Shown here: in pieces, positions 53,659-60,246 of the stretch
Layout: each line of letters opens with the position of its first letter
Numbering within the stretch: the stretch's first letter is position 1
Source: Candidatus Methylomirabilota bacterium
GTDB taxonomy: Bacteria; Methylomirabilota; Methylomirabilia; Rokubacteriales; CSP1-6
Direction: 5' to 3'
Length of the DNA stretch: 60,764 bases
Assembly: GCA_035936835.1 (NCBI GenBank)
Contig: DASYVT010000008.1
Location: 1 to 60,764 of the forward strand
The notes under the pieces: model-generated
Database searches by the model: none
Told to the model about the DNA's origin: nothing
The model's input: the letters and a program-made list of their open reading frames with translations, nothing else
Translations under genes and position numbers: made by a program

Positions 53659-53667
53659 GGGCCAGTG

Positions 53668-53673
53668 TATACT
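53668..53673 (+). promoter_or_regulatory. -10 box TATACT of aroQ
   Basis: TATACT ends 9 nt before the ATG at 53683, inside the 24-nt gap after plsC. It predicts a leaderless or very short-leader transcript for aroQ. Confidence 0.5.
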
Positions 53674-53682
53674 TTCCCCGCC

Positions 53683-54162
53683 ATGGCACGTTCATCGGCT
53701 GCCCTTGTCCTCGTACTCCACGGGCCCAACCTCAATCTCTTGGGGACGCGGGAGCCTGCCGTCTACGGCCGCACGACCCTCGCACAGCTCGACGGCAAGA
53801 TCCGGCGCCACGCAGTGCGCCGAGGCGCCAAGGCGGTCTGCCGCCAGTCGAACCACGAGGGCCAGCTCATCGACTGGATACAGGGCGCCGCAGGCGAGGG
53901 CTTCCGGGCCATCGTCATCAATCCCGGCGCGCTGACCCACTACTCCCTCGCGCTGCGCGACGCGGTCTCCGCCGTTTCCGTGCCCGTCGTCGAGGTCCAC
54001 CTCTCGAACCTCCACGGGCGGGAGGATTTCCGTCGCCATTCGGTGATCGCAGCCGTGGCGCGGGGACAGATCGCGGGCTTCGGCCCCGCCAGCTACCTCC
54101 TGGGCGTGGACGCGGCGCTCCAGTCGGCCGCCGCGGGCCGGCCGAGCCGGCGCCCGCGGTGA
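53683..54162 (+). CDS. aroQ: Type II 3-dehydroquinate dehydratase
   Basis: 159-residue enzyme of the shikimate pathway; dodecameric family. GPNLNLLGTREPAVYG carries catalytic Tyr28, QSNHEGQLIDWI follows, NPGALTHYSLALRDA is the phosphate-site region, and VEVHLSNLHGREDFRRHSV contains the catalytic His. GREDFRR differs slightly from the usual RE(P/E)FRRHS form. The C-terminus is Arg-rich (RPSRRPR). With aroK at 29.8 kb, this is the second shikimate gene in the window. Confidence 0.93.
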   Translation: MARSSAALVLVLHGPNLNLLGTREPAVYGRTTLAQLDGKIRRHAVRRGAKAVCRQSNHEGQLIDWIQGAAGEGFRAIVINPGALTHYSLALRDAVSAVSVPVVEVHLSNLHGREDFRRHSVIAAVARGQIAGFGPASYLLGVDAALQSAAAGRPSRRPR

Positions 54163-54230
54163 ATGTCGGTCCCCCTTCCGGCGTCTAATCCGCGTCGTGG
54201 CGGGAGGCGTGGGGGCCGCCAGGGGCGCCT

Positions 54231-55418
54231 GTGACGCCGCCCGCGGATCCGCCGATGCCACCCGACGGCGCAGGCTCTCCGGGCTCCGCGGACCTGGACG
54301 AGCGCCTCCTCATCGAGCGGTGTCGCGCGGGTGACATCGCGGCGTTCGAGCCCCTGGTGGAGAAGTACCGGCAGCGCGTGTGGCGCCTGGCCTTCCAGGT
54401 GCTGCGCGATCGCGAGGAGGCATGGGATTGCGCTCAGGACGCCTTCGTGCGGGCATTCCAGTCGCTGGCATCGTTCCGGGGCCACGCGGCTTTCTACACC
54501 TGGCTCTTCCGCATCGCCATGAACGTGGCGACCGACCGGCTGCGCGCCCGGAGCGCCCAGGCACGCGCGTTCGGCAGCCAGCCAGTGCCCGCGGAGGAGT
54601 GGGAGCGCACGGCGCTGGATCACGGGGAGCGGCCCGACCAGGCCGCGCTGGGCGCCGAGCGGCGCCTGCGCATCCGCCAGGCGCTCGATACCTTGCCGCC
54701 CAACGCGCGAACCATTATCATGCTCAGTGACGTCGAGGGACTCTCGTACCGCGAGATCGCATCCGTGCTCAACTGCCCAATCGGAACGGTGATGTCGAGG
54801 CTTCACAACGCGCGCAAGCGGCTGCGGAGCGCGCTCGGGCCCATGCTGCTCGTGCTCGTGTGTCTCGCGGCCGCGCTCGCGGGCGTCGCCGCATGGTCGC
54901 CGGCCTCGGGTCAAACGCCTCCGCCGGCCCCGGTCGCGGCGCCTCCGCCCGTCACGGCGCCTCCGAAAGGCACGGTCCACTTCGAGGTCAGGGTCCTGCA
55001 GGCCTCGAACCCTCCCGCTCCTCAGCCCGCGGCGGCCGGCAAGCAGGCGCCGGCTCCCGCCGGCCCCGCCGTCGGCAAGATGGACGAGCGCCTCAAGCAG
55101 ATCGTGCCGCGGCTGAGCAAGCTCTTCCGCTACAGTGACTACACGCCGCTCGAACATCACAATGTGGACGTCGAGTTCGGCGCCTCCAGGCGCCTGCCTG
55201 CCCCGGGCGACCGCTCGCTCGAAGTCACGCCGATGGACCTCCAGGGCAAGTCGGTCCGCATGCAGGTGCGGCTGCTCAAGGGCGAGAAGTCGGTCATGAC
55301 CTCGAACATCGTCGCCGCCCCGGGCGCGCCTGCCATCGTCGGCGGCCCGCGCCACGGCAACGGTGTGCTCATCATCATCATCTGGGCGGATCCGATCACC
55401 GCGCCCCCGGCGAAGTGA
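54231..55418 (+). CDS. ECF-type sigma factor with C-terminal membrane/extracytoplasmic extension
   Basis: 395-residue protein. Residues 25-100 are sigma region 2 (LVEKYRQRVWRLAFQVL, AWDCAQDAFVRAFQSL, FYTWLFRIAMNVATDRLR); residues 145-200 are region 4 with its HTH (LSYREIASVLNCPIGTVMSRLHNARKRLR). The same frame continues into a hydrophobic stretch (MLLVLVCLAAALAGVAAW, 205-222), a Pro-rich linker and a beta-rich domain (about 242-390) rich in basic residues. Either the sigma factor is membrane-tethered, or an internal ATG (54843) begins a separate secreted protein. No separate anti-sigma gene is next to it. Confidence 0.85.
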   Translation: MTPPADPPMPPDGAGSPGSADLDERLLIERCRAGDIAAFEPLVEKYRQRVWRLAFQVLRDREEAWDCAQDAFVRAFQSLASFRGHAAFYTWLFRIAMNVATDRLRARSAQARAFGSQPVPAEEWERTALDHGERPDQAALGAERRLRIRQALDTLPPNARTIIMLSDVEGLSYREIASVLNCPIGTVMSRLHNARKRLRSALGPMLLVLVCLAAALAGVAAWSPASGQTPPPAPVAAPPPVTAPPKGTVHFEVRVLQASNPPAPQPAAAGKQAPAPAGPAVGKMDERLKQIVPRLSKLFRYSDYTPLEHHNVDVEFGASRRLPAPGDRSLEVTPMDLQGKSVRMQVRLLKGEKSVMTSNIVAAPGAPAIVGGPRHGNGVLIIIIWADPITAPPAK

Positions 55419-55436: not shown

Positions 55437-56960
55437 GTGAGTGAGGAGCGCTACTTCCGGGAGCGCGCCCGCATCGAGCAGGGCCACGTCAAGTACCGCG
55501 ACAAGCTGAAGGACGAGGGCAAGCTCTTCGTCCGCGACCGTCTGAAGCTCCTCCTCGACCCGGGCTCTCCGTTCCAGGAGGACTTCCTCTTCGCCCGCAA
55601 CCTGGAGGCGGATACGCCCGCCGACGGCGTGGTCACCGGTGTCGGCACCGTGGGCGGGCGCACAGTCTGCATCATGGCCAACGACTACACGGTCAAGGCC
55701 GGCTCCTGGGGTGAGAAGACGGTGGCGAAGATCGTGCGCATCCAGGAGCGGGCCCAGCGGCTGCAGGTGCCGCTGCTCTATCTCGTGGACGCGGCGGGCG
55801 GGCGCATCTCGGAGCAGATCAAGATCTTCCCCGGCCGCTTCCATGCCGGGCGCATCTTCTACAATGAAGTCCAGCTCTCCGGCGTCGTCCCCCAGGTGTG
55901 CATTCTCTTCGGCCCGTCGCCGGCCGGCTCTGCCTACCTGCCGGCTCTGACCGACTGCGTGATCATGGTGGACGGTAAGGCGAGCCTGTACGTCGGCTCT
56001 CCCCGCATGGTCGAGATGGCCATCGGCGAGAAGGTCTCGCTCGAGGACCTCGGTGGCGCACGCATGCACTGCTCGGTGTCGGGCTGCGGCGACATCCTGG
56101 CGGGCTCCGACGAGGACGCGATCGAACTCTGCAAGCGATACCTGGCCTTCATGCCCCAGTCGTATCGCGAGCGGCCGGCGAGCACCGAAGCCCGCGAGGC
56201 CGTGCCGGGCAGGCCGATCGAACAGATCGTCCCGTACGACCAGCGCAAGTGGTTCGACATGTACGAGGTCATCGATCGGGTCGTGGACGCAGGCTCCTTC
56301 TTCGAGATCAAGCGGCTCTTTGCCCAGGAGATCATTACCGGATTCGCCCGCATCGGCGGCCGCGCAGCCGGCATCGTCGCCAACCAGCCCAAGGTCAAGG
56401 GCGGCGTGCTGATGGTGGACTCCTCCGACAAGGGCGCGCGCTTCATCTGGCTCTGCAACGCGTTCAACATCCCGCTCGTCTACCTGGCCGACGTCCCGGG
56501 CTTCATGGTCGGGGCCAAGGTGGAGCGCGCGGGCATCATCCGCCACGGCGCCAAGATGGTCTTCGCCACCTCGCAGGCGACGGTGCCGAAGATCTCCGTG
56601 GTCGTGCGCAAGTGCTACGGCGCGGGGCTCTACGCGATGTGCGGCCCGGCCTTCGAGCCCGACGCGGCGCTATCCCTGCCGCAGGGGCAGGTGGCCATCA
56701 TGGGGCCCGAGCCGGCGGTCAACGCCGTCTACTACAACAAGATCATGGAGCTGCCGGAAAGCGAGCGCGCGGCTTACGTCCGGGAGAAGCGCGCGGAGTA
56801 CGTCCAGGACGTGGACATCTACAAGCTCGCCTCGGAGATGCTGGTGGACGGCATCATCGCGGGGTCGGAGCTGCGCGGCGAGCTCATTAAGCGGCTCGAG
56901 TACGCCCAGGGCAAGCAGCTCGAGTTCCCACCGCGCAGGAATCCCGTTCTCCCCGTCTGA
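55437..56960 (+). CDS. Acyl-CoA carboxylase carboxyltransferase (beta) subunit
   Basis: 507-residue carboxyltransferase of the biotin-dependent propionyl-/methylcrotonyl-CoA carboxylase type. N-terminal RARIEQGHVKYRDKLKDEGKLFVRDR, oxyanion segment YLVDAAGGRISEQ, FGPSPAGSAYLPAL, GSPRMVE, and C-terminal domain with RIGGRAAGIVANQPKVKGG and LADVPGFMVGAKVERAGIIRHGAKM. The GTG start at 55437 is preceded by G-rich sequence. No biotin carboxylase subunit lies nearby, so the acyl-CoA preference is open. Confidence 0.92.
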   Translation: MSEERYFRERARIEQGHVKYRDKLKDEGKLFVRDRLKLLLDPGSPFQEDFLFARNLEADTPADGVVTGVGTVGGRTVCIMANDYTVKAGSWGEKTVAKIVRIQERAQRLQVPLLYLVDAAGGRISEQIKIFPGRFHAGRIFYNEVQLSGVVPQVCILFGPSPAGSAYLPALTDCVIMVDGKASLYVGSPRMVEMAIGEKVSLEDLGGARMHCSVSGCGDILAGSDEDAIELCKRYLAFMPQSYRERPASTEAREAVPGRPIEQIVPYDQRKWFDMYEVIDRVVDAGSFFEIKRLFAQEIITGFARIGGRAAGIVANQPKVKGGVLMVDSSDKGARFIWLCNAFNIPLVYLADVPGFMVGAKVERAGIIRHGAKMVFATSQATVPKISVVVRKCYGAGLYAMCGPAFEPDAALSLPQGQVAIMGPEPAVNAVYYNKIMELPESERAAYVREKRAEYVQDVDIYKLASEMLVDGIIAGSELRGELIKRLEYAQGKQLEFPPRRNPVLPV

Positions 56961-58616: not shown

Positions 58617-59087
58617 ATGAACAGACTCGTGCGAGGCATCAGGATCTCCCCAAGCCAGGCCGGTTTCAGCCTGGTCGAGCTCCTTGCCGCCGTTTTCGTC
58701 ATCTCTCTCGGTCTGGTGGCGGTCGGGGCGGGCTTCGCCACGGCCATCCAGGGCGTCGAGACGAGCCGCCAGCAGCCGACGGCGACCTTCCTGGCCGAGC
58801 AGCGCCTCGAACAGATCCGCGCGACGGCCCTCGGCAACTCGCTGGCCGCGTGCATGGGCTTCGCCAATATCACACCTGGCTGCTTTCCCGACCAGGCCTA
58901 CGGTGCGATCCCGAACGCTCCAGGGTACCGCACGCACGTCATGATCACCGATTCCCCCCCCGTCAACGGCAACATCGCCCGCAAGCGGGTGGACGTCGAG
59001 GTCTTCTACCGGCCGATCGTGGCCTGGGGAGCGCTCACTACCGAGCGCAGCGTGCGGCTGTCCACCCTCATCGCGAACCACACATGA
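58617..59087 (+). CDS. Type IV pilus minor pilin / PilV-like pseudopilin
   Basis: 156-residue prepilin-like protein. The prepilin peptidase site and N-helix read AGFSLVELLAAVFVISLGLVAVGAG (cleavage after Gly16, then F-S-L-V-E with the E5 residue), followed by a short globular domain with two Cys (CMGF, GCFP) and RLEQIRATALG typical of PilV. It begins the operon behind a sigma-54 promoter. Likely role: minor pilin priming pilus assembly. Its stop overlaps the next small gene (ATGA). Confidence 0.88.
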   Translation: MNRLVRGIRISPSQAGFSLVELLAAVFVISLGLVAVGAGFATAIQGVETSRQQPTATFLAEQRLEQIRATALGNSLAACMGFANITPGCFPDQAYGAIPNAPGYRTHVMITDSPPVNGNIARKRVDVEVFYRPIVAWGALTTERSVRLSTLIANHT

Positions 59088-59239
59088 GTCCCCGTGTCGC
59101 GGCCTTGAAGGTGGTCGGCCTGAAGAGCGCCACCGCCACCGCGAACAAGGTCGACGCCCAGGCGAACGCGCGCATGGGCATCGACCGTGTCATCGAAGAG
59201 ATTCGCGAGCCGGGGTACTTGCCGGAGGCAGGGGCATGA
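59084..59239 (+). CDS. 51-aa miniature protein resembling the helix of PilW-type minor pilins
   Basis: Short ORF fitted exactly between two ATGA overlaps, so it is probably translated. KVDAQANARMGIDRVIEEIREPGYLP resembles the post-membrane helix of PilW-like pilins and lines up with RVEAQQNGRIALELMVRELRSA in the gene at 60243. It has no prepilin signal and no C-terminal beta domain. It may be the remnant of a larger minor pilin, or a small cytoplasmic helper. Confidence 0.55.
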   Translation: MSPRVAALKVVGLKSATATANKVDAQANARMGIDRVIEEIREPGYLPEAGA

Positions 59240-59730
59240 TTCGGGCGGCTCATGGCGTGGCGAGGAAGGCGGGCGGGCGCCCCTTCCGAGAGGCCGGCTT
59301 CAGCCTCACCGAGCTGGTCGTAGTCATCGCCGTCGTCGGCGTGCTCTCCGTCATGACCGTCCCATTCTTCGTTCGCTACTATCAGGCGGCCGCGGCGCGC
59401 GCGGATGTCCAGCAGGTCATCACGCTCTTCAGCCAGGCCCGCGCGCTCGCGGTCAAACAGAACGATAGGGTCTGCGTCACCATGCCGACCAACACGCAGA
59501 TGGTCTTGCGCCTGAGCACCTGCGCCGGCACTGTCTGGACCGGCCCGGGCACGGACGGCGCCGGCAACATCAAGCTGCCGCAGGGATTCACCATCGGGCC
59601 GCTCAACAACGTGACCTTCGACTACCTGGGCACGGCGGTGGCGGCGACAACCTACACCATGACCAACTCGACCACCTATGAGACAAACACGATTTCCATC
59701 GCGCTCAGTGGCCGGGTGACGAGTCCGTAA
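59236..59730 (+). CDS. GspH/FimT-family pseudopilin
   Basis: 164-residue pseudopilin. Class III signal site EAGFSLTELVVVIAVVGVLSVMTVPFF (cleavage after Gly21, E5 present), helix ADVQQVITLFSQARALAVKQND, and a beta domain with two Cys in CVTM and STCAG. FimT/GspH proteins are minor (pseudo)pilins of type IV pilus or type II secretion machines. The start overlaps the mini-gene stop; the next gene follows directly after its TAA. Confidence 0.88.
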   Translation: MIRAAHGVARKAGGRPFREAGFSLTELVVVIAVVGVLSVMTVPFFVRYYQAAAARADVQQVITLFSQARALAVKQNDRVCVTMPTNTQMVLRLSTCAGTVWTGPGTDGAGNIKLPQGFTIGPLNNVTFDYLGTAVAATTYTMTNSTTYETNTISIALSGRVTSP

Positions 59731-60246
59731 ATGCGTCGCGCGCTCCGATTCGTCGCTGCGGACCAGGCCGGGATGTCGTTGGCGGAGATTCTAATCGCCT
59801 GCGTCATCATCGCCGTCGGCCTGGTCGGCCTGCTCTCGGCCGTACCGTCCGCCAGCTACGGGATCCAGGAAGGCCGGCAACTGTCGACGGCAACCTTCCT
59901 TGCCAATCAGCGGCTCGAACAAGTAAGCAACGCGCGGTGGACGCAGTGTCCGGTGGCCGATACCCTAGGCGTCTCGGCGTCGGCATCCGTCGCTCCGACC
60001 TCCGGAGCCCTCACCACCTTCCCGGACGAGAGCCCGATGGCTGCGCCCTACGGCGACTACACACGGACCGTTCGCATCACCGCCGCCCAGCCTGCGGATC
60101 CCTGTCCCGGCGGCGTCGGCGGCCCGAACGTCGGGCTCCGGCAGGTCGTCGTGACCGTGAGCTACAGGCCATCGACCGCCACCGGGGTCGCGGCCGCCGG
60201 CACCACGAAGAGCGCCATCGTCACCATGCTGATCGCCCAGCGGTGA
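59731..60246 (+). CDS. PilV-like minor pilin
   Basis: 171-residue protein. Prepilin motif AGMSLAEILIACVIIAVGLVGLLSAV (cleavage after Gly14; Met at position 1 and E5 present), then RQLSTATFLANQRLEQVSNARW, the same block as in the gene at 58617, so the two are paralogues. Beta domain with CPVAD and DPCPGG. The start adjoins the preceding stop. The stop overlaps the next GTG. Confidence 0.86.
   Translation: MRRALRFVAADQAGMSLAEILIACVIIAVGLVGLLSAVPSASYGIQEGRQLSTATFLANQRLEQVSNARWTQCPVADTLGVSASASVAPTSGALTTFPDESPMAAPYGDYTRTVRITAAQPADPCPGGVGGPNVGLRQVVVTVSYRPSTATGVAAAGTTKSAIVTMLIAQR

Follow-up and report, generated by a model that had tools for sequence, protein, structure and literature searches.

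Organization of the locus

In the stretch of DNA analysed here (60,764 nucleotides, hereafter the window), a frame on the forward strand (54231-55418) is open for 395 codons between aroQ and an acyl-CoA carboxylase carboxyltransferase gene (Table 1). When the chain was tested against the ECF (group 4) type, sigma regions 2 and 4 were its sole sigma domains, and both scored above the Pfam cut-off. The chain also matched the NCBIfam superfamily TIGR02937 (118.6 bits; cut-off, 42.9), and its score against the RpoE equivalog TIGR02939 (162.5 bits) was below the 236-bit cut-off. Beyond the sigma part there was no Pfam or NCBIfam match and no anti-sigma domain, and the tail (54843-55418) searched separately matched neither database. 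A zf-HC2 domain was likewise not detected by Pfam; about six residues separate the end of region 4 (residue 198) from the start of the hydrophobic stretch (residue 205).

In the AlphaFold2 (AF2) model of the chain (mean pLDDT 82.9), helix 166-203 (numbered as in the model, which starts at ORF residue 19) carries region 4 on into the hydrophobic segment, and the tail is modelled as a helix and about eight strands. A preliminary description of this DNA had reported sigma regions 2 and 4 running in frame into a membrane helix followed by a Pro-rich and beta-rich tail. The Pfam matches and the 395-codon ORF bear out the in-frame arrangement, and the hydrophobic stretch and the tail are as described. 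The "membrane helix" needs amendment: the hydrophobic stretch is real, and it has the full features of a signal peptide.

Near the end of the window, a run of pseudopilin-like genes at 58617-60246 encodes the N-terminal motifs GFSLVEL, GFSLTEL, and GMSLAEI and is, judged by these motifs, a minor-pilin cluster of a type IV pilus or type II secretion system.

Table 1 Features of the fused sigma factor locus (positions in the window) and of the orphan anti-sigma gene (position in its contig).
Feature	Position	Strand	Basis
aroQ, type II 3-dehydroquinate dehydratase; conserved upstream neighbour	53665..54162	+	in 42/45 related loci
-35 element TGAAT of ECF-type promoter; overlaps aroQ stop codon	54160..54164	+	
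-10 element CGTCTAA, 17 bases past the -35 element	54182..54188	+	
Fused gene, 395 aa: ECF sigma factor, signal-peptide-like helix, linker, and exported beta domain	54231..55418	+	
Sigma70 region 2 (residues 42-108)	54354..54554	+	PF04542, E 1.7e-16 (Pfam)
Sigma70 region 4 (residues 146-198)	54666..54824	+	PF08281 Sigma70_r4_2, E 1.7e-19 (Pfam)
Segment resembling a signal peptide: residues 205-222 form the hydrophobic core, and the c-region ends in A-S-G↓Q	54843..54911	+	-3/-1 rule
Internal ATG, once proposed as second start; not conserved	54843..54845	+	ATG in 11/47 homologues
Pro/Ala-rich periplasmic linker, with first strand (VHFEVRVLQAS)	54912..55073	+	
Periplasmic helix and beta domain, weakly secretin-like (GGP motif)	55074..55415	+	AF2, Foldseek, Pfam, hhalign
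Acyl-CoA carboxylase carboxyltransferase; conserved downstream neighbour	55437..56960	+	in 40/45 related loci
Orphan zf-HC2 membrane anti-sigma	G000:C81:8745-9305 (L169, L170)		PF13490, 31.1 bits vs cut-off 22.2

The joint between the sigma factor and the tail

The preliminary description had offered two readings of the hydrophobic stretch, a tether within one chain or the signal peptide of a second protein started at the internal ATG at 54843. Among the 47 fused genes, the codon at the joint is ATG in 11, CTG in 25, and CTC in six, and no Shine-Dalgarno sequence is evident there in the 47 homologues. Four-fold sites vary as much near the joint (1.19 bits) as in the rest of the sigma part (1.26 bits); a hidden overlapping element at the joint was rejected for this lack of extra synonymous constraint. 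Since the ATG is poorly kept, a Shine-Dalgarno sequence is not evident, and synonymous sites show no added constraint, a separately started second protein is unlikely, and the internal start was rejected as the main reading.

The signal-peptide build of the segment is kept among the homologues, with a hydrophobic core, a Pro/Ala-rich c-region, and a small residue at -1 (Ala in 42 and Gly in five). A signal-peptidase-I-type site, defined by the -3/-1 rule with Q or E at +1, was found in all 47, whereas the shuffle control gave a mean of 17.8 and a maximum of 29. In the window, the predicted cleavage separates residue 227 from residue 228. A site conserved in this way would be superfluous in a bare membrane anchor, although it could be a relic constraint from the need to export the tail. 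Genes for signal peptidase I and for M50 proteins are present in this genome.

Distribution and origin of the fusion

A search for the tail among 80 relatives matched 56, and a tail profile search over 95 genomes of the phylum matched 66. Within the order to which the window belongs (Ca. Rokubacteria, uncultured bacteria of soil and groundwater), the tail is present in 55 of 60 genomes, and the five genomes lacking it are 64-87% complete. Sigma factor and tail share one open frame at 47 loci, all within this order, where the fusion is near-universal and single-copy; the named records that carry it come from several projects and are MAGs of Candidatus Rokubacteria. In a tree of the 46 fused sigma domains of sufficient length, these domains form one clade with a support of 100/100. 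Within-genus dN/dS is below 1 in the sigma, joint, linker, and tail regions alike. The in-frame conservation of the fusion is far beyond chance, and the fusion evidently has a single origin, in the ancestor of the order. Given this conservation and spread, it is neither a sequencing error nor a recent accident.

These results support the tether within one chain, with an in-frame fusion across the order and a single origin. Two separate genes in close relatives, an objection raised in the preliminary description, were not found, the close relatives being fused. A sequencing error hiding a stop near 54830, the other objection, is excluded by the many independent assemblies that carry the fusion. 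The source assembly of the window is a draft genome of 236 contigs. One locus (L049; G032:C120:74491-74945) has a frameshift within the tail domain of the fused gene, after which the tail resumes in another frame; either an assembly error or a true truncation could account for this.

Split relatives and the ancestral operon

In two families of the same class (f8 and f9), the genes are separate and stand in the order sigma factor, zf-HC2-like membrane anti-sigma factor, and tail protein. Their sigma factors are 40-46% identical to the fused sigma factor, and their tail proteins have a signal peptide of their own ending in A-Y-A↓Q or A-A↓Q. Close relatives are all fused; the split state is confined to other lineages of the class and to paralogues in two Rokubacterial genomes (G018 and G036). 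The nearest sigma relatives checked from other phyla are unfused, and most have an anti-sigma-like ORF directly downstream. The f9/f8-type operon of sigma factor, zf-HC2 anti-sigma factor, and secreted tail is evidently the ancestral state of the fusion.

An anti-sigma-tail fusion was first suspected in f9; its 336-aa frame proved to be a GC-rich frame shadow, the true anti-sigma gene lying in another frame and the tail having its own signal peptide. At three f9 loci (L050, L051, and L053), a Pro/Tyr/Trp-rich secreted protein (VPATERQRVWVEGHHENGWWVP) is encoded directly downstream of the sigma operon. The genomes G018 (L062) and G036 (L064) contain, besides the fusion, a divergent unfused set of sigma factor, anti-sigma factor, and secreted tail, which is followed in both loci by a thioredoxin-fold-like lipoprotein.

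An orphan anti-sigma gene elsewhere in the genome

The preliminary description found no anti-sigma gene adjacent to the fused gene. This holds for 45 fused loci, in whose flanks (up to 3 kb) none was found, and it is amended by an anti-sigma gene of the cognate type elsewhere in the genome. Total loss of the anti-sigma factor, which we had first assumed, was overturned by a zf-HC2 search of the genome. This search returned four proteins; two adjoin other ECF genes, and an orphan on contig C81 (G000:C81:8784-9302; Table 1) ends in VIWVF, the C-terminal motif of the f8/f9 operon anti-sigma factors. The orphan is classed from its sequence as a zf-HC2 (ZAS) membrane anti-sigma factor with one predicted transmembrane (TM) helix.

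Relatives of the orphan occur in 55 of 59 genomes of the order; no anti-sigma factor of this type was detectable in G004, G019, and G024. The H-x3-C-x2-C motif and the hydrophobic segment are present in all 30 orphans compared, and no sigma gene lies within about 1.5 kb of the anti-sigma gene in the 30 loci. A profile built from these 30 scored 76-96 bits against the f8/f9 operon anti-sigma factors and at most 45 bits against all other anti-sigma factors tested. In Rokubacteria, the anti-sigma gene left the operon rather than vanishing. Named by eye from sequence, its neighbours are DUF502-like, dienelactone-hydrolase-like, YbgF/CpoB-like coiled-coil, and OmpA/Pal-like lipoprotein genes, and this adjacency to Tol-Pal-type genes is conserved across the order.

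A promoter shared by the unlinked genes

Hexamer enrichment found GTCTAA upstream of 38 of the 45 fused genes, where 0.3 would be expected; for the 30 orphan anti-sigma genes the enriched hexamer was GTCCAA, present upstream of 23 (0.6 expected). The extended form AAT-N16..18-CGTC[TC]AA precedes 40 of 45 fused genes and 23 of 30 orphan anti-sigma genes, compared with means of 0 and 0.01, respectively, in 300 shuffles; this exact form is missing from five and seven of these upstream regions, respectively. The -35 element of ECF promoters is more usually of the AAC type; here it is GAAT, and a search for standard GAAC-type ECF motifs was negative.

Across the 4.1-Mb genome, RAAT-N17-CGTCYAA has exactly two matches, which precede the fused sigma gene and the orphan anti-sigma gene, respectively. 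Two congeners (G001 and G003) likewise have two matches each, before the same two genes, and across 14 genomes of the order 15 of the 31 exact matches precede one or the other. A similar sequence lies near the sigma start in the f9 operons and in L060 (f8), which suggests that the promoter common to the now unlinked pair is probably older than their split. The position of the promoter before both genes strongly indicates that the fused sigma factor is autoregulated through it. Common promoter and orthology together strongly indicate that the orphan anti-sigma factor is the partner of the fused sigma factor.

Proposed mechanism and alternatives

The explanation that we consider probable overall is an autoregulated, membrane-anchored pro-sigma factor, released by signal peptidase and a site-2 protease and restrained by an anti-sigma factor in trans. 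A three-gene operon lost its anti-sigma gene to another site, and the sigma gene fused to the signal peptide of the tail, giving one polypeptide in which a periplasmic protein's signal peptide directly prolongs the last helix of the sigma factor. Insertion would leave the sigma part on the cytoplasmic side and place the beta domain in the periplasm, and the sigma factor would then begin its existence at the membrane. While tethered, the sigma factor should have difficulty in working at promoters, since in the model the region 4 helix meets the membrane within a few residues. Cleavage by signal peptidase I at the conserved A-x-A↓Q site would free the tail, and a site-2 protease of the RseP type may, by analogy, clear the membrane stub and release the sigma factor. 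Signal peptidase acts as the site-1 protease on RsiP (PMC8844934), RseP removes signal peptides (PMC8144685), and Prc together with RseP releases IutY (PMC5411451). The positions of the RAAT-N17-CGTCYAA promoters strongly indicate that the free sigma factor transcribes from them both the fused gene and the unlinked anti-sigma gene, and restraint in trans by the orphan would then close a negative feedback loop. The relatives that lack the exact promoter or a detectable anti-sigma gene speak against this scheme. A stricter form, which we put forward with some doubt, has a signal peptide carrying the sigma factor as its cytoplasmic cargo. The sigma factor would become active only after Sec export of the tail, signal peptidase cleavage, and stub clearance by a site-2 protease, with feedback from the unlinked but co-regulated anti-sigma factor beside Tol-Pal-type genes.

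It is distinctly unlikely that the locus still makes two proteins, the sigma factor and a tail started near the joint, either at the ATG at 54843 or at the ATG of the invariant GTVMSRL motif 18 codons upstream, which would leave the fusion with little functional meaning. The tail does have a complete signal peptide, the GTVMSRL Met is invariant, and the genus of the window, like a few others, has an ATG at the joint. However, this Met belongs to a sigma region 4 motif common to many unfused ECF sigma factors, the start-site and synonymous-site analyses of the joint speak against initiation there, and two independent genes would not require the absence of a stop at 47 loci. An assembly or sequencing error near 54830, which a draft genome might invite, has a negligible probability, as the same fusion recurs in dozens of independently assembled MAGs and the error has already been refuted on that ground.

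Constitutive processing of a polyprotein, in which signal peptidase cuts at export, the sigma factor is released at once, and only the trans anti-sigma factor exerts control, is a possible variant that we hold tentatively; being a sub-case of the probable explanation given above, it overlaps with it in probability. The near-perfect site in all 47 homologues and a cognate-type trans anti-sigma factor with a common promoter agree with it, but the sigma factor would keep a hydrophobic stub, and the fusion has never re-split across the order, suggesting a benefit of coupling. Fused ECF sigma factors released by proteolysis have precedent (PMC8999054, PMC5411451), and the fusion could be a plain membrane anchor and sensor of the IutY or ECF52/53 style, whose periplasmic domain would respond to a signal by setting off regulated proteolysis, with the orphan belonging to another sigma factor. 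This is unlikely: the sole two promoter matches in three congeneric genomes precede the fused sigma gene and the orphan, the closest relatives of the orphan are the operon anti-sigma factors, and the fused chain has no anti-sigma domain. The anchored, autoregulated pro-sigma factor is our preferred reading.

Comparison with known systems

ECF sigma factors normally reach the membrane through a separate membrane anti-sigma factor. In E. coli, the genes of the RpoE envelope-stress system stand in the operon order rpoE, rseA, and rseB. The ancestral order of sigma factor, membrane anti-sigma factor, and periplasmic protein resembles this system, as does an ECF sigma factor with its own promoter. 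In contrast to that system, no similarity to RseB was found for the Rokubacterial tail, the anti-sigma factor is of the zf-HC2 type and unlinked, and the sigma factor is fused to the third protein. The roles of RseA and RseB have been summarised (PMC8103513).

The nearest known case, IutY of Pseudomonas putida (ECF243; PMC5411451), also combines an ECF sigma factor, a single TM segment, and a periplasmic domain in one chain (the topology of the Rokubacterial chain is predicted), with release by a site-1 protease and RseP plausible for the fusion too. Its fused part, however, is a FecR-kind anti-sigma domain of cell-surface signalling, whereas that of the fusion is a former secreted protein with a signal peptidase site, and the Rokubacterial anti-sigma factor is a separate, unlinked zf-HC2 gene. 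Actinobacterial ECF48, ECF52, and ECF53 (e.g., SCO4117; PMC8999054, PMC5826349) share the C-terminal TM extension and the Pro-rich periplasmic region; they carry a zinc-finger anti-sigma-like part, whereas the fusion has no zinc finger and its region 4 meets the helix within a few residues. In RsiV and RsiP (PMC4183432, PMC8844934), a signal peptidase site likewise serves as site 1 for freeing an ECF sigma factor, but there the anti-sigma factor is cut, while in the fusion the site lies within the sigma protein. Membrane extensions fused to ECF sigma factors have been described before (IutY, ECF48/52/53), but these are or contain an anti-sigma domain (PMC8999054). In the Rokubacterial fusion, the extension is the third, secreted protein of the operon, and the anti-sigma gene is unlinked. 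No description of such a fusion was found in the literature searched, which did not include the 2021 ECF classification (Casas-Pastor 2021).

Comparative genomics displays the whole rearrangement, from the operon through the departure of the inhibitor gene and the fusion of the sigma factor to a signal peptide to the one promoter kept at both genes. The fusion may make gene activation depend on cutting the sigma factor off its exported tail, and it provides a clean natural setting in which to ask if export and cleavage of a sigma factor can serve to control it. If the sigma factor is indeed signal-peptide cargo, transcription would be wired directly to protein-export or processing capacity. 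The common promoter also offers a means of matching orphan anti-sigma factors to sigma factors encoded far away.

Secretin-like features of the tail

In a Foldseek search of the tail against the PDB, secretins ranked top, with E-values between 2e-3 and 9e-3, probabilities reaching 0.97, and low TM-scores. The Pfam Secretin family (PF00263) matched six of 39 tails weakly (best E, 0.02), below its gathering cut-off, so the tail is not assigned to the family. When compared by hhalign with 30 Rokubacterial secretin domains, the tail aligned along 50 columns with a probability of 75% (P 2.5e-5), and the G..(I/V)GG motif coincided in the two. The core of the tail is likely a beta domain distantly like that of secretins, with which it shares a weak core resemblance and a similar motif; unlike them, it has about 110 residues and no secretin pore architecture. 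PDZ-type hits in a PDB sequence search with the tail profile were weak and probably spurious. Apart from the tail, small proteins that match only secretin positions 17-130 (L159 at G000:C209:72612-72935, L222, L223, and L226) are conserved in the genus and beyond, and they are possibly lone secretin-like proteins.
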